Source: a virus | DNA length: 56,295 nucleotides | Direction: 5' to 3' (one strand) | Virus record (IMG/VR): IMGVR_UViG_3300036832_000712 | Location: 1 to 56,295 of that record | Part shown: positions 8,018 to 40,600 of the stretch, piece by piece | Layout: each line of letters begins with the position of its first letter | Numbering within the stretch: the stretch's first letter is position 1 | Notes under the pieces: generated by a model | Database searches by the model: none | Told to the model about the DNA's origin: nothing | Seen by the model: the letters and a program-made list of their open reading frames with translations, nothing else | Position numbers and translations under genes: made by a program

Positions 8018-10914
8018 GACTTCTTCTTGAACTCGACGATCTTCCGAGACTCGTCGTCAGGTGCGTCAGGCGTGCTCGGTACGGCGATCGGCGACGCCGT
8101 CTTTATTGGAATTACAAAGCACAGAATCGGACTGCTCAAGGTCCGGTTCTCTGCCCGCATGCGCTTTTTTACGGACCTGTGTGTGATGCGTCCGGCCGTC
8201 TGGAGGTTGTCGAGTATGCTGCTGTAATCGTGGTGGTGCTGATTGCAGTAGTCTCTGAATGGCCCGGTGCGCACATACACCTCTGCCTTGGATATTTCGT
8301 ACCGTGCCTTGAACTCGACGTGAGGCGGCGCGTATAGCACCTCAGGTTCGTTCCTGGTGTTCTTGTCGACACGACAGATATTCGGATTGATCTCTTCCAG
8401 GTACTCGTTGAGAATCGTCTCCGGCGTCGTATGCTCACGCTCAAGCTTGGCTTTGTTTCTCATAGCCGGTATCTGCACGTCTATGAGCCACTCGCGCATG
8501 AGCTTGTAGCTGAAGGGGAAGTACCCCAGCTTGTTGCCTAGCTTGAGTCCCAGCAATGCAGTGGCGGCGCAGGCGGTCGCGAAGCGCTCTTCTTGACTCG
8601 CGTTTATGTCTGCTTCGAATCGCTGCTGGATTTCGAGGAACTTGCCGCCCACGACTTCGGTGTGGGGCAGACAACGGCATAGAAAATCTTCTCCGATCCA
8701 GCCGTAATTCCTCAGGAGAAGCCGCATGGCAGTGTCGGCTTCTACCTTCGTATGGACAGCATTCCTGCTTACTCTGATCTCGAAGACGCGCATGATGCCG
8801 GCTTGGCCGCCTGAACTGTCGGCGTTGACCATCTGCACCAGCGACTTGTTGCTGGTGCAGAGAGTCAGGTTTGATTTGTACCCGCCACGAGCCTGACGAA
8901 AGTCGCGGTTGGATTTCAGGCTGGTGTACGACCCCGGCTGGCTGGCCGAGAGTGCGATCTCGTGCGCCACGTCGTCTTCGAACCGTGTAATCTCGTCGAC
9001 GATGAATGGCAGGTTACGACAGATCGCGCCGCGCTCCTGGCGGCCTTTGTCTGTGCTGTTCGATCGCAGGCCGCTGATGCAGTAAAGCTCTGGATGCCCC
9101 CACAGGCTGGCGGCGAAATACACACCGGTACTCTTTGATGCGCCGGTATCCCCGGTCAGGCAGACCAGCATGCCGTGCAGATTCGAGTATCTGAAAAATG
9201 GCGTCGCCAGCGAAGCGCAGATGGCGAACTGCTGCGCCATGTACTCCGGGGCATTGTAGAACTCCATGAGCGCGATCTGCTGGCTCAGGCTGCCCATATG
9301 GTTCATGCTGTCAAGCTGAGTATTCTTTGTCATTACACACGGGGTGATCGAGCCGTCTGCGATCGAGATTTTTCGACCGTGCATGACAAAATATTCCGGG
9401 GTCCCAAGTTCTACCGGCTTCTCGGTCTCGGTTAGTTCCTGAGGGGGGACTTCCCATCCGACGTAATCGTATTGACCGAGATCGTTGGTGTATCTTCGCA
9501 GCTCCTTGAGATACGCCTGCATGAACGTGTGCACTGGTTTGAGCTGCTTCGGAAGAATGATGACGTCCTTGTTGCGAAGCGCCGATGCGAGAGTCTTCGG
9601 CTCCAGGTCGGCATTCAGGAGTTCAATCATCTTCCAACCTTCGCGTGGAGTTTTGACGTACCAACGTGAAAGGCAGTTCTCGTTGAAGGTCGCCCTGATC
9701 CACTGTACAGGAAACATCGGGTATTCGTAAATCCAACCATCCTTCTTTGCCTTGACTCCGTAGGTCATGTCCAATGTGTAAGGCGCCGGTGGCGGGCATG
9801 GCGGTGTTACATTTTGTAATACCGCAGACGCAGACGCAGGCGCAGGTTGATGCGCTCGTTCATAGACTAAGTTAGCGATCAGGACAGGATTCTTGGCGAG
9901 GTCCCTGAACGGACATCTATCGCAGATCGCCGGATCACCGCTGTTGTGGTCGATCTTCTCGCACCCCGGCGGGGGAAGTACCCAAGCGTCGAGCTTCTCT
10001 TGGGTCTCTTCCCGGGTGTAACCCGGATGGCCGTTCGACCACTCCTGGGCTTTCACCTCGCCGTCGTCGCAATATTTTACCGTGCCAATGCCGACATGCC
10101 ACTGCGGCTCGCGCACGTTCCCCTGGCTGTCCCTGAATATTCTCATATGCTCGCAGACGTCAGCGACTTCGTCGGCCGGCGGGCGGCGGCCGTCCCAGGC
10201 GACGGAGAGCTCTGGTCTGCGCGCCTTCGCGCTGTGGGCTTCGCCCGGGGCATCGGGCGCCAGGGTGGCAAGCTGGGCCAGCAGCTCTGCTGCTGGCGTC
10301 ACCACACCTTCGGCAAGGATTACCACCTGGCGCGGGTAATCGTGGTCCTTGAAATTGAACGTGCCGGGTACGCGCAGCACGCTGCTCTGGTCCGTGGTGC
10401 GCATGGGGTCGACGTGCAGATCATGTTGCTGAGCCAGCCAGCGCAACCGACCCGCAGGCTCGCGCCAAGCCAGAGATTCGATCGATGTGTCGATCACCCA
10501 GTAGACATGGATACCGTATCCCGAGTCTACGATGAACGGAGATGGCAGGCAGGCACTGAACAAAAATTTCTCTAGTGCATTAAATATATCCTGCTTGGTA
10601 GCGTAGTGATCCTTCGGGCCTCCAGCGTCGATGTCGAAAAAGAAAACACGAGCTTCCCGCATGTTCTCGTGGGTTCGGAAAGTCTGGAGCTTCCCGGTGT
10701 CTGGATTCGCTTCACGCGCGACTCTCAGCGCGTGTGGCGCAAAATATAAATCTTTCGTTTGCTTCTTTGTCAGGACATAAGCTATCGCGTCATCGAGCGT
10801 GTCGCATCCTCGATGCGCCATGACCGTCTTGCCATCAGGCTTCATCCACGGAGTGGCGATGCAGTAGGGACCGCGCTGCGGCCACACTGCACTCAAGAAC
10901 TTGCGCGTGTTCAT
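8014..10914 (-). CDS. Primase-helicase (AEP-type primase plus P-loop helicase)
   Basis: 966 residues. The N-terminal part has primase-polymerase signatures: FFFDIDAG (catalytic D94, D96), SGYGIHVYW (H136) and RVPGTFNFK (181-189). A Cys-containing segment follows (about 318-335, CEKIDHN...CDRC). The C-terminal half has Walker A GDTGASKSTG (588-597) and LPFIVDE (Walker B, D640 E641), as in the DUF927-like helicase half of phage replicative proteins. It should unwind the fork and prime synthesis for the polymerase at 17111-19027. AGGAG lies 9 bases before ATG, overlapping the stop of a short upstream ORF. A degenerate palindrome lies within codons 366-372. Confidence 0.85.
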   Translation of the reverse strand: MNTRKFLSAVWPQRGPYCIATPWMKPDGKTVMAHRGCDTLDDAIAYVLTKKQTKDLYFAPHALRVAREANPDTGKLQTFRTHENMREARVFFFDIDAGGPKDHYATKQDIFNALEKFLFSACLPSPFIVDSGYGIHVYWVIDTSIESLAWREPAGRLRWLAQQHDLHVDPMRTTDQSSVLRVPGTFNFKDHDYPRQVVILAEGVVTPAAELLAQLATLAPDAPGEAHSAKARRPELSVAWDGRRPPADEVADVCEHMRIFRDSQGNVREPQWHVGIGTVKYCDDGEVKAQEWSNGHPGYTREETQEKLDAWVLPPPGCEKIDHNSGDPAICDRCPFRDLAKNPVLIANLVYERAHQPAPASASAVLQNVTPPCPPPAPYTLDMTYGVKAKKDGWIYEYPMFPVQWIRATFNENCLSRWYVKTPREGWKMIELLNADLEPKTLASALRNKDVIILPKQLKPVHTFMQAYLKELRRYTNDLGQYDYVGWEVPPQELTETEKPVELGTPEYFVMHGRKISIADGSITPCVMTKNTQLDSMNHMGSLSQQIALMEFYNAPEYMAQQFAICASLATPFFRYSNLHGMLVCLTGDTGASKSTGVYFAASLWGHPELYCISGLRSNSTDKGRQERGAICRNLPFIVDEITRFEDDVAHEIALSASQPGSYTSLKSNRDFRQARGGYKSNLTLCTSNKSLVQMVNADSSGGQAGIMRVFEIRVSRNAVHTKVEADTAMRLLLRNYGWIGEDFLCRCLPHTEVVGGKFLEIQQRFEADINASQEERFATACAATALLGLKLGNKLGYFPFSYKLMREWLIDVQIPAMRNKAKLEREHTTPETILNEYLEEINPNICRVDKNTRNEPEVLYAPPHVEFKARYEISKAEVYVRTGPFRDYCNQHHHDYSSILDNLQTAGRITHRSVKKRMRAENRTLSSPILCFVIPIKTASPIAVPSTPDAPDDESRKIVEFKKKS
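9804..9822. promoter_or_regulatory. Dispersed palindrome, degenerate copy in primase gene
   Basis: GTGTTACATTTTGTAATAC. One half-site is perfect, the other has one change (TGTAATAC). It lies inside the primase-helicase gene, where it encodes VLQNVTP on the minus strand, the same frame as the copy at 16891-16909. Confidence 0.6.
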
Positions 10915-21593: not shown

Positions 21594-22031
21594 TCAGTTG
21601 ATCCGTATCGCGTCAACCACCCCACGCTTTATGCGCTTAAGCAAAGATGACGGGTCGGTACCCATATGTTCGGCCCACTCACTTAGACATTTACGTCGGC
21701 CTTTGATTTCGTAAATGACGTTCTGCCGTGTGTTGCGTGCTTGCTGAAGTGGAGTCACCCAACGACAGTTGGATGGGAAATACCCACGATCATTGTCGCG
21801 CCGATCGATACACATACCGGCCGGCGCTTCACCCATGTCGGCAAGGAAATTGGCAAACAAGTCCCATCGTTTGCAAACTTTTATTCCTCGCGCTCCATAC
21901 TTACGCCACCACGCGGCATTGGTAGTCGATGCACACCGAGCACGCATCCCTTTCCAAATGCGATACGTCCGTGTACCGCAACCACCGTGTCGATAGTTAG
22001 GATTGCGTTTTCCAGGGTAGGTCCTAGGCAT
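21594..22031 (-). CDS. HNH-family homing-type endonuclease
   Basis: 145 residues. [53 protein letters not shown] and QQARN follow the conserved Cys/His/Asn pattern of phage HNH endonucleases; a C-terminal helix-turn-helix-like CLSEWAEHMGTDPSSLLKRI may bind DNA. A paralog lies at 39814-40320 on the same strand. The start overlaps the VWA gene by 8 bases. Likely a mobile gene inserted in the MoxR/VWA cluster. Confidence 0.8.
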   Translation of the reverse strand: MPRTYPGKRNPNYRHGGCGTRTYRIWKGMRARCASTTNAAWWRKYGARGIKVCKRWDLFANFLADMGEAPAGMCIDRRDNDRGYFPSNCRWVTPLQQARNTRQNVIYEIKGRRKCLSEWAEHMGTDPSSLLKRIKRGVVDAIRIN

Positions 22032-23178
22032 CGACAGTGATCCTTACAACTCCAGCCCAATCGGGACACGTCGCGTCAGTCGTGCACCCGATGATGAGAG
22101 GGTAGGGTGTAGGGCTTTCAGGCCAGGGTGTATAAGCATCAGTCAGAAGCAGCACGACCTCAGGACTGTACTGCTCCGCCACATACTGCAGCGGCTTCCG
22201 CATGTCGGTGCCACCACCTCCTTTAGGGTGCAGAATCACCTCGTTGCCGTCCTCGAACACGTCGACGTTCGAGCACTCGGCATCGTCGGCCCAGATCACG
22301 CGCACGGTCATCGGCTTGATGACGGTGACGATGTGGTTCACCGCAACAGCTATCCTTTCGAATATCTCCTTGGTGAACATCGAGCCAGACGAATCAGCCA
22401 CGATGGTCAGCTCGTCCATGCCGTTGCTCCTGCGACTCGGCAAATAGATATTGCTGTACCGGCGATTGCGCCTGTTCCAGCTTTCGTCTTGTGCAAGACA
22501 GGCAGTCATGTAGTCGATCAGTACCTGCTCCCATGGCACCGGGTCCTCGTAGGTCGCGCCGACGATGGCCGCCAGCTCGCCCGGCATGACGCCATGCTGG
22601 CGGGCTATGGCGCTCGCCCGGGCCAGGGTCTTGTTGATGTGGTGCTCGATCGCCGCCGCCTGCTCGGGCGTGGCCGCCGGGACCGGCCGCAGGTCGCCGC
22701 CCAGGCCGCCCTGCCCAGGACCCTGGCCCTGCCCCTGCCCTTGTCCAGGCTGCCCCTGCTTCCCGCCCTGCTGCTCCAGCAGGGGGTAGATTTGCTCCGC
22801 GGTCATGCCGCGGTACTTGGGATCGATGAGCGCATACTGCCAGATTTTGAACTTGAGATCGTACAGCATGATGTTGATGGCGTAGTCGCAAGCCTTGTTC
22901 CAGCGCTCATGATCGCGAGAACCACGCCGTAAACCATGCTTGAGCAGTATGTGCATAAGTTCGTGGATAACTACGAACTTGGCGGTCGGGATGTCCAGCC
23001 CCTCGATGAAGGCCGGGTTGTAGCCGATGACCGTCATGTCGGTCCACGCTGTCGCGCAGGTCGGGTCCTCGACGAACGGAGTCTGCAGCAGGGCTGCTGC
23101 AAAGAACATAAGTTCTTTTACTTTTACGAGACTCGCTCTCGCAGTTTCCATAACAGAGAGTTGCTGTTGTCTTCTCAT
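22024..23178 (-). CDS. Metallopeptidase-like VWA protein (DUF2201-type)
   Basis: 384 residues. The N-terminal domain has VVIHELMHILLKH (HExxH, 72-76) in a putative zinc peptidase fold; a Gln/Gly-rich linker (138-162) follows; the C-terminal part is a von Willebrand A-like domain with ADSSGSM (262-267, MIDAS DxSxS) and GGGGTDMRKPL (MIDAS Thr), ending with VVLLLTDAYTPWP. This layout partners MoxR ATPases. With 24983-26065 and 20264-21118 it forms a phage MoxR-VWA-DUF3150 module. Confidence 0.85.
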   Translation of the reverse strand: MRRQQQLSVMETARASLVKVKELMFFAAALLQTPFVEDPTCATAWTDMTVIGYNPAFIEGLDIPTAKFVVIHELMHILLKHGLRRGSRDHERWNKACDYAINIMLYDLKFKIWQYALIDPKYRGMTAEQIYPLLEQQGGKQGQPGQGQGQGQGPGQGGLGGDLRPVPAATPEQAAAIEHHINKTLARASAIARQHGVMPGELAAIVGATYEDPVPWEQVLIDYMTACLAQDESWNRRNRRYSNIYLPSRRSNGMDELTIVADSSGSMFTKEIFERIAVAVNHIVTVIKPMTVRVIWADDAECSNVDVFEDGNEVILHPKGGGGTDMRKPLQYVAEQYSPEVVLLLTDAYTPWPESPTPYPLIIGCTTDATCPDWAGVVRITVDA

Positions 23179-23351: not shown

Positions 23352-23552
23352 TCAATATGGGTTGGTCTGGGTCAGCCCCAGCTGGGTCTCGAAGCGGGCA
23401 GCGACAATATCGCAGACCCGATGGATATCTTCGTGCGACAGCTTGTGTCTGAGGAAGATCATGAGATCGCTCTGGATCGTGCCACAGGCATCCTCCAGGT
23501 TCCTGTCAGGGTTTTCCTTCGGCGTTTTGAATTTCCATTCATCGTAGGTCAT
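23352..23552 (-). CDS. Hypothetical protein, 66 residues
   Basis: MTYDEWKFKTPKENPDRNLE with a helical region DLMIFLRHKLSHEDIHRVCDIVAARFETQLG. Leader AAAGGAGTGACTGACG precedes the ATG. No family recognised. Downstream of the 172-bp structured element at 23587-23758. Confidence 0.65.
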   Translation of the reverse strand: MTYDEWKFKTPKENPDRNLEDACGTIQSDLMIFLRHKLSHEDIHRVCDIVAARFETQLGLTQTNPY

Positions 23553-23586: not shown

Positions 23587-23758
23587 TTGGCGAGGTTAGT
23601 GAGACGGAGCTAGGGAAGCGCTGCTGGGATCGAACCGGCACACCCAGCTTTCGGTTTGGAGCTTTAGAGAAGTTGGCGGCCTTGTCGCCTCTCTGCCGAA
23701 AACGGCTGCTACGAGCTTCCGACTTTCCATCCGTCCTCCGTCCCACCAACCTCGCCAA
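23587..23758 (-). ncRNA. Candidate structured RNA or MITE-like element with T-arm-like motif
   Basis: A 23-bp inverted repeat (23587-23609 with 23736-23758) closes the element; as RNA its two mismatches become G-U pairs. Inside, on the minus strand, GGAAGC pairs with GCTTCC, a ten-pair helix is split by a 3-base bulge, an AGAGAG/CTTCTCT hairpin forms, and GGTTCGATCCC looks like a tRNA T-loop. No standard cloverleaf or encoded CCA can be folded. No convincing ORF is present. It abuts the palindrome at 23759. Alternatives: tRNA relic or a small inverted-repeat element. Confidence 0.55.
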
Positions 23759-23777
23759 GTGTTACATGATGTAACAC
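23759..23777. promoter_or_regulatory. Dispersed palindrome GTGTTACA-TGA-TGTAACAC
   Basis: Perfect half-sites, starting on the base after the 172-bp inverted-repeat element and ending at the stop codon region of the gene at 23778-24047. Confidence 0.85.
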
Positions 23778-24047
23778 CTATGAGTGAGTGTACCCATCTT
23801 CCTCGATGCCCAGCCACATGCCCCATCGGGGCAGCATGATGCAGGGAATGCCGAAGCCCGGCTGCACCGTCTTGCGGAAGAGTCGCCACTGCCAAGACGG
23901 CACCTTGACGATCTCCGGGTTGCTCCACTTGCCGCAATGCCGGCAGTAAGTGCCGTCGTGCCGCGTCGTGGGCGTGATCCAGCTAGGGAAATCCGTCTGG
24001 AAAATTTTGAACAAAGCTTCACGTTGTTTGCGAGTCGTCTTAACCAT
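23778..24047 (-). CDS. Hypothetical protein with CxxC
   Basis: 89 residues. Basic start MVKTTRKQREALFKIFQTDF, one CRHC pair and an aromatic second half (WQWRLF, RWGMWLGIEEDGY). Resembles small phage early proteins; unknown. AGGAGAACTCT precedes the ATG. Confidence 0.6.
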   Translation of the reverse strand: MVKTTRKQREALFKIFQTDFPSWITPTTRHDGTYCRHCGKWSNPEIVKVPSWQWRLFRKTVQPGFGIPCIMLPRWGMWLGIEEDGYTHS

Positions 24048-24982: not shown

Positions 24983-26065
24983 TCAGTTCGAGGTATAGAC
25001 CTCGCGGTACTTCTTCACGTAGTCCATGTACGCATCGGCATCAAAGAGAGTGGCGTCCCGCGCGGTGGCGAGCTGCCACGCCATGACGACGAACTCCGCG
25101 GTGAACCGCTTGAGGTACATGTGCAGCTTGTCCACGTTGCCGAGCGTCATCTTCTCGGACACGTGCATGGCGGTCGCGTACTTGATCGAGAGTTCTTCGG
25201 GCACCGGGTACTTGTCGGGCGCCGCGAGAATCTTCTCGATATTGGGGAGGCTCTGCCAGACGTCAACGTGAGCCAGGAACTGCACTGCCGGCCCTTCACC
25301 GATAGCGCCGATCATGGCGGCCTCCTTGATCTCCGGCGTAAGGCGCTTGTCCTGCCACAGCTCGGCCGCGGTGAACCAAGTCCTTGGCGTGGCCACGATG
25401 GCCTGGGTCTTCTTCGGGTCGTAGGTGTTCACCAAGTCCGCGCAGAAATTCCAGAACGAGAGAAACACTTTGGGCACGCCTTGACTCTGCGCATAGATGC
25501 AGAAATCGTCTAGCGAATTGATCGCCTCGACGTGGATCAGCCGGTTGTTCAACGGCATGGGTAGTTTCTTGGCTAATGCCTGATCGTCTAGGAGATTGCC
25601 GGCCAAGAGCATGCGCACGTTGGGCTTCAAGACGTGCTCACCGATGCAGCGATTCAGCACAAGCTGCTGCATCACCGCAAAGACATCGTTCTTCGCATCA
25701 GGCGCTTCGTCGAAGAAAACAACGATGAGCTTGTCATCTGGAAAACTATCATTCCCGATGAACGGCATGGTACCTGGCGGATACCAGACCGTCGTTCCTG
25801 TCTTTTTGTCGGCCTGAGGGGTACCGCGCATATCGACGGAGTCGTACTGAGAGAGCCTGATGTCGATCAGGAGCGTGCCCGTGTAGGGGCAGTCTTTCCC
25901 GAGCAGCGCCTTGAGCGCCTCGGGGCTGTCGAGCTCGTCAACGGCCTGCTCGACACCTTGACTCTTGCCGATACCAAACCGGCCCCTGACGAGGATCGGC
26001 TTGTCGAGACGCACCACTATCTCTTTAACGGTGGTCTTGAGTTGAGAGATAGAAAGCTTCTTCAT
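24983..26065 (-). CDS. MoxR-like AAA+ ATPase
   Basis: 360 residues. Walker A GRFGIGKS (29-36 region), YDSVDMRGTP, LIVVFFDEAPDA (Walker B, D119 E120) and MLLAGN (sensor 1) are in MoxR order, with the short lid typical of this clade. MoxR ATPases remodel proteins together with VWA partners; the partners here are the HELMH/VWA protein (22024-23178) and DUF3150 protein (20264-21118). Palindromes flank the gene on both sides. Confidence 0.85.
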   Translation of the reverse strand: MKKLSISQLKTTVKEIVVRLDKPILVRGRFGIGKSQGVEQAVDELDSPEALKALLGKDCPYTGTLLIDIRLSQYDSVDMRGTPQADKKTGTTVWYPPGTMPFIGNDSFPDDKLIVVFFDEAPDAKNDVFAVMQQLVLNRCIGEHVLKPNVRMLLAGNLLDDQALAKKLPMPLNNRLIHVEAINSLDDFCIYAQSQGVPKVFLSFWNFCADLVNTYDPKKTQAIVATPRTWFTAAELWQDKRLTPEIKEAAMIGAIGEGPAVQFLAHVDVWQSLPNIEKILAAPDKYPVPEELSIKYATAMHVSEKMTLGNVDKLHMYLKRFTAEFVVMAWQLATARDATLFDADAYMDYVKKYREVYTSN

Positions 26066-28417: not shown

Positions 28418-28993
28418 TTACACCTGACGAGCGTTCTTCTCTTGGCGTTTGCGACGACTCAGCCATCCCATCAGCCCGAGACCGCCAGCGAACAGTGGCA
28501 GGGCAGCGGGGAGCGGCGTGGTCTCCAGCTGGAAGTTGGACTGGCCGATCGGGCCATTGACCCCGGATGCCTGGAGCTCGAAGAAGTAGTCCACCCCGGC
28601 CATCAGGGACACCACGTCGGTGTTGTTGTTGGCGGCGAAGTTGCCGGCAACCACCGTGCCGTTGACAGTATCCCGGGTGATCCTGAAGATTTCAGCGACG
28701 AAGCTCGGCAGATCGTTCGCCGGGTTGTTGAGCACGTCGACGTTGACCAGGGTGCCGTTGGCGCCGGATACAGTGAACTCGACGAAGTCGCTGAGGAACG
28801 ACGGCGCCGTGGTCGACTGCAGCGTGCCGGCAAGCTCGGTCGGGCTGACCGCCCCGACCGTTCCCTGCGACGGCGCAGGGCCAGTAAATGACAGCCCGTT
28901 CTGGACCAGATTGATGGTGGCGGCGTTAGCGGCGGTGACCATTAATCCCAGAGTCAGGGCAGCGCCGGCAGCGAGAAGGCTTCTCATAGTCAT
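28418..28993 (-). CDS. Secreted protein with PEP/VPLPA-CTERM-like tail
   Basis: 191 residues. Signal peptide MRSLLAAGAALTLGLMVTAA NA (start at 28993 or, three residues later, 28987), a Ser/Thr/Asn-rich beta ectodomain with many N-glycosylation-like NxT sites, and a C-terminus TPLPAALPLFAGGLGLMGWL then SRRKR: sorting motif, single membrane helix and basic cluster, as in exosortase substrates of Gram-negative bacteria. Such a protein in a phage would need the host exosortase for anchoring. A second one is at 32618-33256. Function at the surface unknown. Confidence 0.8.
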   Translation of the reverse strand: MTMRSLLAAGAALTLGLMVTAANAATINLVQNGLSFTGPAPSQGTVGAVSPTELAGTLQSTTAPSFLSDFVEFTVSGANGTLVNVDVLNNPANDLPSFVAEIFRITRDTVNGTVVAGNFAANNNTDVVSLMAGVDYFFELQASGVNGPIGQSNFQLETTPLPAALPLFAGGLGLMGWLSRRKRQEKNARQV

Positions 28994-32617: not shown

Positions 32618-33256
32618 TTAGGCTAGAGCTTTGCGGCGGCGCGTGAGCCAGCCCATGAGGCCCAGTCCGCCGAACATCAGCGGCAGCGATGCCGGCAGCG
32701 GCGTGGCCACCAGCGGTCCGGCCACGTCGATGCGGTAGTGCTCGTAGTCGGTGATCTCGCCAGTGGCATCGACCAGCGTCAAGAGGTTCATGGTCTCGCC
32801 GTTGATAGCGGTGAGGGTGAAGCCTGATTGCGCGTTGGCGGTGATCTGACCGAGGTCGATGTTGAAAGTGCCATCGGTGGCCTGCACGATGGCGTGCACG
32901 TCGCCACTTCCCTTCAAGCTGAACACCTGCGTCGAGGTGGTCAGCACCTGGGTGTCGGAGGTGTTGGAAAACACCTCGATCTGAAGATCAGATGTGTTGG
33001 AGATTTTTATGTCGTTGCCATTGGCGGCGCCGGCGAACAGTGAATTGCCGGAGAGGTCACTGAAGTTCACCACGCCAGTGTGCTGGCCATTGAACTGGCC
33101 GATAGCGAGGCTGCCGGCGAAGCTCTCGAAGGTGACATTGTCGCCGGTGCCCGAGAGCATGGGGCTCATGACGACGTCGGCATGCGCTGTTACGAGCGCC
33201 ACCGGCGCGAGCGCAAAAGCGCAGGCGAGCGTGAGCGCGAGCAGGGTCTTACGCAT
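32618..33256 (-). CDS. Second secreted protein with PEP/VPLPA-CTERM-like tail
   Basis: 212 residues. Signal peptide MRKTLLALTLACAFALAPVA with AHA cleavage area, then a beta-rich ectodomain (VTFESFAGSLAIGQFNGQHT, SDTQVLTTSTQVFSL), and the tail TPLPASLPLMFGGLGLMGWL then TRRRK. The tail nearly repeats that of 28418-28993, although the ectodomains differ. Leader GGGAACC before ATG is preceded by eight TTGG units and a dispersed palindrome at 33314. Host exosortase would be needed to process it. Confidence 0.8.
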   Translation of the reverse strand: MRKTLLALTLACAFALAPVALVTAHADVVMSPMLSGTGDNVTFESFAGSLAIGQFNGQHTGVVNFSDLSGNSLFAGAANGNDIKISNTSDLQIEVFSNTSDTQVLTTSTQVFSLKGSGDVHAIVQATDGTFNIDLGQITANAQSGFTLTAINGETMNLLTLVDATGEITDYEHYRIDVAGPLVATPLPASLPLMFGGLGLMGWLTRRRKALA

Positions 33257-35198: not shown

Positions 35199-35238
35199 GA
35201 TCTGAGGGTCCTTGGCATAGCAGATTGTGGTCAGCAGG

Positions 35239-35270
35239 GCCGCGCGTTTTCGTGATGGCTAACGCGCGGC
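35239..35270. other. Perfect 10-bp inverted repeat upstream of 34584-35198
   Basis: GCCGCGCGTT (35239-35248) and AACGCGCGGC (35261-35270) with 12-base loop, extendable by CAG/CTG. No T-run on either strand; may be a leader structure or protein-binding site. Confidence 0.5.
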
Positions 35271-35320
35271 TCTGCGCATAATCAGCTAACTACAATCCGC
35301 AGTCAATCCCCTCGAACAAA

Positions 35321-35346
35321 ACAAACAAACAAACAAACAAACAAAC
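35321..35346. repeat. (ACAA)6.5 microsatellite
   Basis: Six and a half exact ACAA units in the control region, near the inverted modules. TCGAACAAAACAA here also occurs at the promoter near 36970. Confidence 0.85.
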
Positions 35347-35409
35347 TCGCGAAAGCCACATACAGTGTGCCAGAACTGCTAAGTGGCTCAAATTACAACA
35401 CTTTTTCGC

Positions 35410-35557
35410 GGTGCCGTAATAAGTAGCTAATACCATTAGGATTTTAGCCCGGTGCACTTTGTGCAGATTTTTCTTTTTTGGTGCCGTTGTAAGTCATTGG
35501 CGGATATCAGCTATTCCATCGGTGCCAGATGTGCACTCAAAAAGTATACCCCCCTAG
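35410..35557 (+). repeat. Left arm of four-module inverted repeat (modules 1 and 2)
   Basis: Two direct 56-bp modules, 35410-35465 and 35480-35535, of the form GGTGCCGT-N2-YAAGY-N26-GGTGC-N3-WTGTGCA, separated by a 14-base T-rich linker and followed by ATACCCCCCTAG. Matched in reverse orientation by the right arm. Candidate replication-origin iterons or master operator. Confidence 0.85.
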
Positions 35558-35677
35558 AAATCTAGGTGTTACTATTTTGTTCTCATTATTCTCTATACTA
35601 TACTATACCTTGTTTTCTGAATAGTTATATATATGAGATGTTGCGGCACCGCGCACCGGACCCATGGTATACAAAAA
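35558..35677. other. AT-rich core between inverted module arrays
   Basis: 120 bp containing TACTATACTATACC, TTATATATATGAG and a half-site GGTGTTAC (35564), plus an inner GGCACCGCGCACC. Low melting stability and central position fit a DNA unwinding element. No gene. Confidence 0.6.
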
Positions 35678-35826
35678 CTAGGGGGGGTATTGTTTTCCAG
35701 TGCACATCTAGCACCTGTGGAATAGCTTATATATTCCAATAACTTAGCACGGCACCAAAAATAAAAAAACTGCACAAAATGCACCAAGCCGAGACTTTAG
35801 TAATATCAATAGCTTGGTACGGCACC
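35678..35826 (-). repeat. Right arm of four-module inverted repeat (modules 3 and 4)
   Basis: Mirror of the left arm: modules at 35701-35756 and 35771-35826 read on the minus strand, with identical 70-base periodicity and T-rich linkers; begins CTAGGGGGGGTAT. The spacer sequences have diverged while spacing has not. Confidence 0.85.
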
Positions 35827-35879
35827 AGCCTAAAACAGCCTCACACACAGAAACATGGTATGCGAGATCACACCAAAAT

Positions 35880-35910
35880 ATTATAAATTCGCTGAGACAT
35901 AAAATATAAA
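35880..35910 (-). promoter_or_regulatory. Candidate promoter into the module region
   Basis: Minus strand -10 TATAAT (35885-35880), poor -35 (TTTATA, 19-base spacer), immediately downstream of the palindrome at 35912. A transcript would cross the whole module region before the gene at 35198. Confidence 0.35.
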
Positions 35911-35911
35911 G

Positions 35912-35930
35912 GTGTTACATCATGTAACAC
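35912..35930. promoter_or_regulatory. Dispersed palindrome GTGTTACA-TCA-TGTAACAC
   Basis: Perfect half-sites in the 1.1-kb non-coding region, 27 bases upstream of a TATAAT on the minus strand. Confidence 0.85.
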
Positions 35931-36191
35931 GTTTTATAGCTTGGTGGATTTCGCGGCTGAGCCGTAAAAAATCCGTGTGTAACCTGTGACATATAACATA
36001 AGTTACATGCGCGCCGCGCGCGCATAGCGGTATGGTAATGCCGCGAGCACATTGTTCATGCAATGCAGACGTGCGTAGGTCGCAGCGTACAAGCGCTGTA
36101 CAGCGCCGTGAGCTCGGAGCGCCACCACCCTAGCGGCCGATCCATGAACGCGCGCCAGCAAGCTCCCTAGTGCGTCCTAGAGGCAAATAAA
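35931..36191. other. Gene-free segment of control region
   Basis: No plausible gene. Contains a 14-bp palindrome GCGCTGTACAGCGC (36093-36106), a GCGGTAT/ATGCCGC hairpin (36027-36044) and GC-rich GCGCGCC blocks. Consistent with non-coding origin or regulatory DNA. Confidence 0.5.
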
Positions 36192-36219
36192 AAAGCCCGT
36201 GCCTTGCGGCACGGGCTTT
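36192..36219 (-). terminator. Intrinsic terminator 1 for gene 36292-36909
   Basis: AAAGCCCGTGCC (36192-36203) pairs with GGCACGGGCTTT (36208-36219), tetraloop between; on the minus strand a TTTTTTATTT tract follows. Confidence 0.85.
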
Positions 36220-36246
36220 GGATAGTTGGATAGCAGGCAACAAAAA

Positions 36247-36270
36247 GGGGCGCGCCGATCGGCGCGCCCC
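36247..36270 (-). terminator. Intrinsic terminator 2 for gene 36292-36909
   Basis: Perfect 24-bp palindrome, GGGGCGCGCC-GATC-GGCGCGCCCC, followed on the minus strand by CTTTTTG. Lies between the stop at 36292 and terminator 1, giving a double stop. Confidence 0.8.
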
Positions 36271-36291
36271 TGGTAGTGTCGTGCGAGTTAG

Positions 36292-39813: not shown

Positions 39814-40320
39814 CTAGGGCTGTTTCGCAAATCTACCATTGATCCGAGGTGGGTCGGCACGTTTTCTTCTGTTTCTTGCTTGCTCGCTGCGTGTCGCCCA
39901 TCGACAATTCTCAGGCGAATAAGGACCGTTATTGTCAATACGTTCGATTGTATGTCCTGGCGGGCAGCGCCCCATGTCGGCGAGGAAGTTGGCGTACTCG
40001 CGCCAGCGGTCACAGACCTCGATACCGCGTCCGCCGTAGTGGTGGAAGTCTTTATGATTTGGGTTGGTGCATCTTTTGATCATGCCTTGCCAGCAGCGAT
40101 ATTCCCTGGTGATCTGACCGTGTTTGGCGTCTCCGTGCTTTCTACAGCACCCGCACGATTTGGCATCACCTGCTCGCAGCGAGGAGCCTCGCACGACCGT
40201 TTCCTTGCCGCAATCGCAGCGGCATAGGAACAGGAGAGCTGTGTTTTTTCCTTGGCCTGCAAGCTTTAGAACAGTGTATCGACCGAAACGTTGGCCTGTG
40301 ATATCAATGCGTTTGGACAT
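39814..40320 (-). CDS. HNH-family endonuclease, second copy
   Basis: 168 residues. N-terminal [20 protein letters not shown] with [20 protein letters not shown] and SCGCC (zinc-type module), then [59 protein letters not shown]. Paralog of 21594-22031, sharing the core but with an added zinc N-terminus. It is the only minus-strand gene in the capsid operon; AGGAG precedes the ATG. Typical of a selfish homing gene. Sequence 40321-40414 also holds an 11-bp hairpin. Confidence 0.8.
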
Positions 40321-40353
40321 GGCGACCGCTCCTACGGTTGCTGGTGTCAAGTG

Positions 40354-40381
40354 GCGGCCGAGCGCTCCAACGCTCGACCGC
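40354..40381. other. Hairpin upstream of gene 40415-40600
   Basis: GCGGCCGAGCG (40354-40364) pairs with CGCTCGACCGC (40371-40381) with one mismatch. Between the HNH start and the next plus-strand gene. No T-run. Confidence 0.4.
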
Positions 40382-40414
40382 TGCGCAACGTAGCACAAAT
40401 ACAAGGAGGTAAAC

Positions 40415-40600
40415 ATGGCAGTCAAACAGCCATGGCAAGATTTTTATAATGCGCAAAGCGGTGAGTATGGCGACGGCTACAGTGGCGATCTCAACAAAGG
40501 CGACGAGCAGGAATACCTGGAGGGCGACGCCCGCGCCGAAGCAGCGCGTGCCGAGTTTCATAAAGTCCAGAAGGACATGCCTGATCCAACGGGCAAGTAA
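40415..40600 (+). CDS. Hypothetical protein, 61 residues
   Basis: [20 protein letters not shown] then [34 protein letters not shown]. Acidic and polar, not recognised. Very strong ribosome-binding site (CAAGGAGGTAAAC), better than neighbours. Confidence 0.65.

Follow-up and report, generated by a model that had tools for sequence, protein, structure and literature searches.

Known structured RNAs of similar setting or layout

The early mRNA of phage T7 is polycistronic, and between its early genes it has RNase III sites, long duplexes that do not contain a large conserved core. Phages and prophages also encode the structured noncoding RNAs ROOL and GOLLD, the function of which is unknown (PMC12286853), and no protein partner of ROOL has been identified (PMC12286853). 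The bacterial Y RNAs consist of a stem formed by both ends of the molecule, together with parts resembling the acceptor, D- and T-arms of tRNA (PMC8394870), and RNase P RNAs have an average size of about 374 nt for the A-type and a size of about 195–215 nt for the T-type (PMC7191817).

The element described here lies in a window of 56,295 nucleotides, the whole stretch of DNA analysed, which is an IMG/VR virus record with a DNA polymerase closest to that of Xanthomonas phage Xp15 (about 30% identity). It occupies positions 23587–23758 on the minus strand, the coordinates already assigned to it by an earlier inspection of the letters (the sequence-only reading), and measures 172 nt, far less than ROOL and GOLLD, which measure from about 660 nt to more than 800 nt and are often found near tRNA islands. 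Folding, two homologues (in phage records L047 and L048) and covariation indicate that it is very probably a real structured noncoding RNA. It shares with the T7 sites a long duplex between early genes on what appears to be a polycistronic transcript but, unlike these, has a large conserved core. No Rfam family is matched at the gathering score and permissive thresholds give nothing significant for the element, so the element is unrelated to ROOL and GOLLD. No description of the RNA was found in the literature (open-licence papers), and it looks like a previously undescribed viral RNA, apparently a working one.

Genomic setting

The element is surrounded by minus-strand genes, with an 89-aa gene upstream (23778–24047), a 66-aa ORF downstream (23352–23552), and then a DUF2201 metallopeptidase/VWA-like gene. 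The 66-aa ORF, used as a query, has no relative among the viral contigs, and no promoter or terminator was found adjoining the element. Relatives of the phage were located by protein searches. In L009–L011 the 89-aa gene is kept together with the palindrome that abuts the element in the window, but here it is directly followed by the ribosome-binding site of a DUF2201-type gene; in the window the same slot is filled by the element and two small ORFs, about 580 bp in all. BLAST and the covariance model built here did not find the element in 21 related phage records, and a 15-base match to one arm of its terminal stem in the relative G013, which is without a partner arm, was set aside as chance. 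With relatives that keep the neighbouring gene and the palindrome and are without the element, the latter appears to behave as an accessory cassette would.

The palindrome GTGTTACATGATGTAACAC (23759–23777) abuts the element, whose edge had indeed been described as touching a dispersed palindrome, and is one of 12 copies in the window. The near-perfect 19-bp palindrome GTGTTACANNNTGTAACAC is distributed over the early region, mostly between genes, with its twelve copies starting at positions 9804, 12279, 16891, 21391, 23759, 24956, 26093, 26836, 33314, 34557, 35912 and 37016; it probably serves as an operator or else forms an RNA hairpin between genes. The DUF2201 metallopeptidase/VWA-like gene lies near a predicted ATPase gene (phrog_1297), at 22024–23178 and 24983–26065 on the minus strand; the two flank the slot of the element, and pairs of an ATPase and a VWA-like gene are noteworthy. 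Elsewhere in the window, the region 35200–36290 is noncoding and contains long imperfect inverted repeats, possibly as an origin or a structured RNA; in relatives, the repeat arms measure 26–65 bp and are contained in about 300 bases (L036 1083–1388, L038 4438–4696, L039 1573–1805 and L040 4937–5214).

Homologues in unrelated phages

When 2.9 million viral contigs were scanned twice for exact matches to different 19-base patterns from the core, an approach that detects only members keeping a 17–19-base stretch, both patterns independently gave the same two loci, L047 (3321–3490) and L048 (2824–2976). A third viral scan returned these loci again, plus six chance matches. By blastn, the minus-strand unit 23595–23750 is homologous to L047 with 94% identity over about 157 nt, and 23604–23750 to L048 with 89% identity over about 147 nt, the homology ending in each case inside the terminal stem. 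The flanking genes are unrelated among the three phages, and no protein common to all three was found, with the proviso that the contigs may be incomplete. Judged from these comparisons, which show one unit in unrelated surroundings, the element evidently passes horizontally between unrelated phages.

In all three carriers the sense strand of the element is that of the upstream gene. In the window and in L048, a phage record of 112 kb, the element is placed between co-oriented genes, about 20–35 nt ahead of a start codon; in L048 it follows a gene that is distantly similar to phage DNA polymerase processivity factors. In L047 the genes on its two sides converge, with no sense gene downstream. 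Near and distant DNA searches of annotated phages and plasmids gave no homologue, and the covariance model, with strict filters, found none in 754 sampled proteobacterial genomes (385 from the class to which a Mesorhizobium belongs, 369 from that of a Xanthomonas), a weak negative, given the filters and given that the hosts may belong to other classes. The 48 matches of an 18-base scan of bacterial genomes were all taken as chance.

Some further matches concern the L047 phage. It carries, at 655–745, an Rfam int-alpA RNA match of 38 bits, above gathering. In the window, two minus-strand ORFs (39814–40425 and 21594–22031) both match one L047-phage ORF with about 42% identity and belong to no Pfam family. 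Two further minus-strand proteins (32618–33256 and 28418–28993) match the PEP-CTERM motif weakly, which is not usual in a phage, and short parts of them resemble an L047-phage protein.

Terminal helix and core architecture

The two ends of the element form a terminal helix, P1, with the 5′ arm at 23736–23758 and the 3′ arm at 23587–23609. The 23-bp terminal inverted repeat of the sequence-only reading, in which G-U compensations had been noted, is recovered here as 23 contiguous pairs on the minus strand, which is also the coding one at this position. Two of these are G-U pairs, which on the plus strand are A.C mismatches. P1 is the longest stem of the window among spans of 60–300 bases; in 100 Markov-shuffled genomes the longest stem averages 16.4 pairs and never exceeds 22. 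Folded as a whole, the element has a z-score of −5.2 as the minus strand and of −4.4 as the plus strand. Without P1, the core has z-scores of 0.15 to 0.44 and is no stabler than shuffled sequence, and folding energy therefore backs P1 only, whereas the inner helices rest on covariation. P1 is not of constant length, as in L048 it comprises only about 14 pairs. A strand assignment from the G-U pairs of P1 was abandoned, because P1 of L047 contains C.A mismatches on the sense strand and the L047 element folds better on the antisense strand; these pairs alone cannot fix the strand.

The core enclosed by P1 comprises ∼107 nt with several hairpins, all on the minus strand. It is closed by a helix of GGAAGC (23715–23720) and GCUUCC (23614–23619). 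A predicted hairpin GCCG-UUUU-CGGC (23695–23706) is located at a position like that of a D-arm, followed by a long hairpin (23666–23694) of 5 bp, a 4-nt bulge, 4 bp and a 7-nt loop, and by a second predicted hairpin GCUGGG...CCCAGC (23623–23648). The GCCG/CGGC and GCUGGG/CCCAGC hairpins are invariant in all three members and for this reason have the status of predictions. Inspection further suggests a possible pseudoknot stem between AACCG (23652–23656) and CGGUU (23633–23637), equally invariant. The conserved unpaired core amounts to some 45 identical bases.

Covariation and selection on the fold

In the alignment of the three sequences, 102 of 102 pair cells contain standard pairs. Both partners have changed in six of the pairs, of which one belongs to P1, three to the core-closing helix and two to the long hairpin. 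When the partners are slid by 1–3 columns, at most 54% are paired and one double-changed pair is found, a control partly favoured because the structure was derived by folding these same sequences; the observed covariation is equalled by 1 of 500 shuffles. Between the window and L048 there are 17 substitutions, 14 of which fall in paired columns, with six pairs compensated and none broken, and in 20,000 random placements of these substitutions the observed pattern is never equalled. The way in which the structure was chosen does not account for the compensated changes. Outside the homologous unit, the outer arms of P1 are unrelated between the window and L047, yet several more base pairs form there. 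The covariation, although it rests on three members only, shows a fold that is evidently conserved as RNA and kept by selection through compensatory change. The sequence-only reading had offered a new small RNA, a degraded tRNA or a miniature inverted-repeat element, and had proposed covariation as one check; the homologues do covary, with compensatory changes in four helices, and of the three options only the new small RNA has stood, the other two being taken up below.

Proposed mechanism and control in cis

The element is proposed to be an exchanged phage noncoding RNA that is freed from the early transcript and acts in trans on host machinery, a mechanism which, taken as a whole, has about an even chance of being correct. 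The RNA would be transcribed from the minus strand within the early operon, with P1 setting it apart as a unit that folds on its own. As a long duplex of the kind cut by RNase III, P1 would also be the probable processing site at which the element is freed from the mRNA. The inner core would then consist of the closing helix and three hairpins, and a pseudoknot may form where the T-loop-like motif lies. Its conserved unpaired sequence would bind a target in trans, for which an RNA-binding protein or RNP of the host is the likeliest candidate. A weak hint at tRNA-handling or RNA-decay machinery, toward which the RNA may act as a decoy or scaffold, comes from the tRNA-like layout. We infer transcription, release, action in trans and a host target for the element: action in trans because L047 has no sense gene downstream and the core is conserved, and a host target because the three phages, on contigs that may be incomplete, have no protein in common.

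The main rival, though a rather unlikely one, is control in cis, by which an intergenic block would regulate the processing, stability or translation of its early neighbours, in the way of the RNase III sites of the T7 early mRNA. Such a role is in agreement with the position between co-oriented genes near the next start codon in the window and L048, with the long duplex at which the element starts, and with the lack of a promoter or terminator of its own. It is difficult to reconcile with L047, where the next gene is convergent, with flanking genes that are unrelated in the three phages, and with the conserved unpaired bases, for which a hairpin that merely directs processing would have no need.

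Resemblance to Y RNA and RNase P RNA

Another reading, distinctly unlikely, is that the element mimics a host RNP handling tRNA and so engages the host machinery, either as an RNase P-like RNA in strongly reduced form or as a scaffold of the Y RNA kind that includes a tRNA-like module. In both RNase P RNA and Y RNA, as in the element, a stem joins the two ends. The Y RNA YrlA (RF02553) is similar to the element in size and in this long basal stem, represented here by the 23-bp P1 with its compensatory changes, and likewise contains an acceptor-like stem, a D-like hairpin and a T-loop-like motif in one module (PMC8394870). In contrast to YrlA, the element has an extra long hairpin, and pairing of the T-arm is disfavoured. 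The T-arm-like motif noted earlier is present as GGTTCGATCCC (23626–23636, minus strand), once in the genome. Its loop TTCGATC fits the T-loop consensus TTCRANN, but the T-stem of 5 pairs carries a C.A mismatch in all three members and the T-arm folds at −1.2 kcal/mol, compared to −9.7 kcal/mol for an alternative hairpin. Among tRNA-type models of Rfam, the best match is tRNA-Sec, in L047 only and with an E-value of 3.7, in which acceptor, D-like and T-like parts are aligned. The covariance model RF02553 has no match in the element at E-values up to 10, and the Ro/Rsr (TROVE) domain PF05731 is absent from the three phage records, the control being positive; the hosts may encode an Rsr of their own. 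The Ro/Y RNA lead did not pass the model and gene tests, and the resemblance to tRNA and Y RNA is suggestive, not significant.

The likeness to RNase P RNA (RF00010, and RF02357 for the minimal type T) includes, apart from P1, the sequence GGAAAGUC (23721–23728, minus strand), which lies immediately inside P1 and equals the core of CR-I, and, beside P1, a short bulged AAG/CUU helix recalling P4, the pairing by which CR-I and CR-V are joined. The CR-I core is found in all three members and the AAG/CUU pairing in L047 and L048, with an imperfect version in the window, at a level that does not exceed shuffles. In an unfiltered search with the new model, E. coli rnpB was aligned on CR-I with 9.2 bits and an E-value of 0.26. 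Local alignments to rnpB were rivalled by 59, 4 and 12 of 100 shuffles, two members being no better than shuffled sequence and the third marginal. The likeness is statistically weak. The RNase P models of Rfam have no match at E-values up to 10 in the window, L047 or L048, and CR-IV, a proper CR-V and the remaining conserved regions were not recognised in the element. The RNase P lead failed the statistical test against shuffles, and the CR-I resemblance is suggestive, not significant. Both likenesses may serve as leads for experiments and would not establish membership of either family. That the exchanged RNA mimics the core of host RNase P or of a Ro/PNPase-type complex and diverts the RNP during infection is graded as improbable.

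Protein-coding, mobile DNA and degraded tRNA explanations

The statement that no ORF can be drawn in the element proved wrong, as a Shine-Dalgarno-like GGAGG precedes an ATG at 23730 that opens a 44-codon frame (23596–23730, minus strand). The GGAGG and ATG are retained and the frame is open in the three phages, as expected of a small protein of about 44 aa, but such a gene is very unlikely. The frame has no PHROG match and is shifted close to its end by a one-base insertion in L047, and its codon changes between the window and L048 (9 nonsynonymous, 2 synonymous) track helices rather than codons. Between the window and L047, 1 nonsynonymous and 3 synonymous changes are found, in sequences too close to decide. 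The covariation pattern argues against a protein, and the frame is not under protein selection.

Most improbable, too, is a miniature inverted-repeat mobile DNA element, to which the terminal inverted repeat might point, as might the occurrence in unrelated phages of a single unit with sharp boundaries. Transposon ends keep their sequence, whereas the terminal arms of the element differ between phages and stay complementary. This interpretation of the sequence-only reading is further contradicted by the single copy per record, the absence of an evident target duplication and the covariation of the inner helices. A degraded tRNA gene, suggested by one T-arm-like 11-mer, is scarcely credible, as ARAGORN detects no tRNA or tmRNA in the window, L047 or L048, in line with the remark that no canonical tRNA can be drawn, no tRNA model fits, and the maintained covariation of a selected structure common to three phages rules out decay.

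Implications for phage RNA biology

Few of the small structured RNAs of phages are backed by real comparative evidence. The present element would add a compact, RNA-only cassette that crosses unrelated phages at 89–94% identity with its fold kept. Because no phage protein travels with it, the element directs attention to a component that the hosts of the three different phages have in common and that could be found directly by RNA pull-down. If the mimicry of a host RNP were true, the element would be an RNA-only counterpart of the protein factors used in host takeover.
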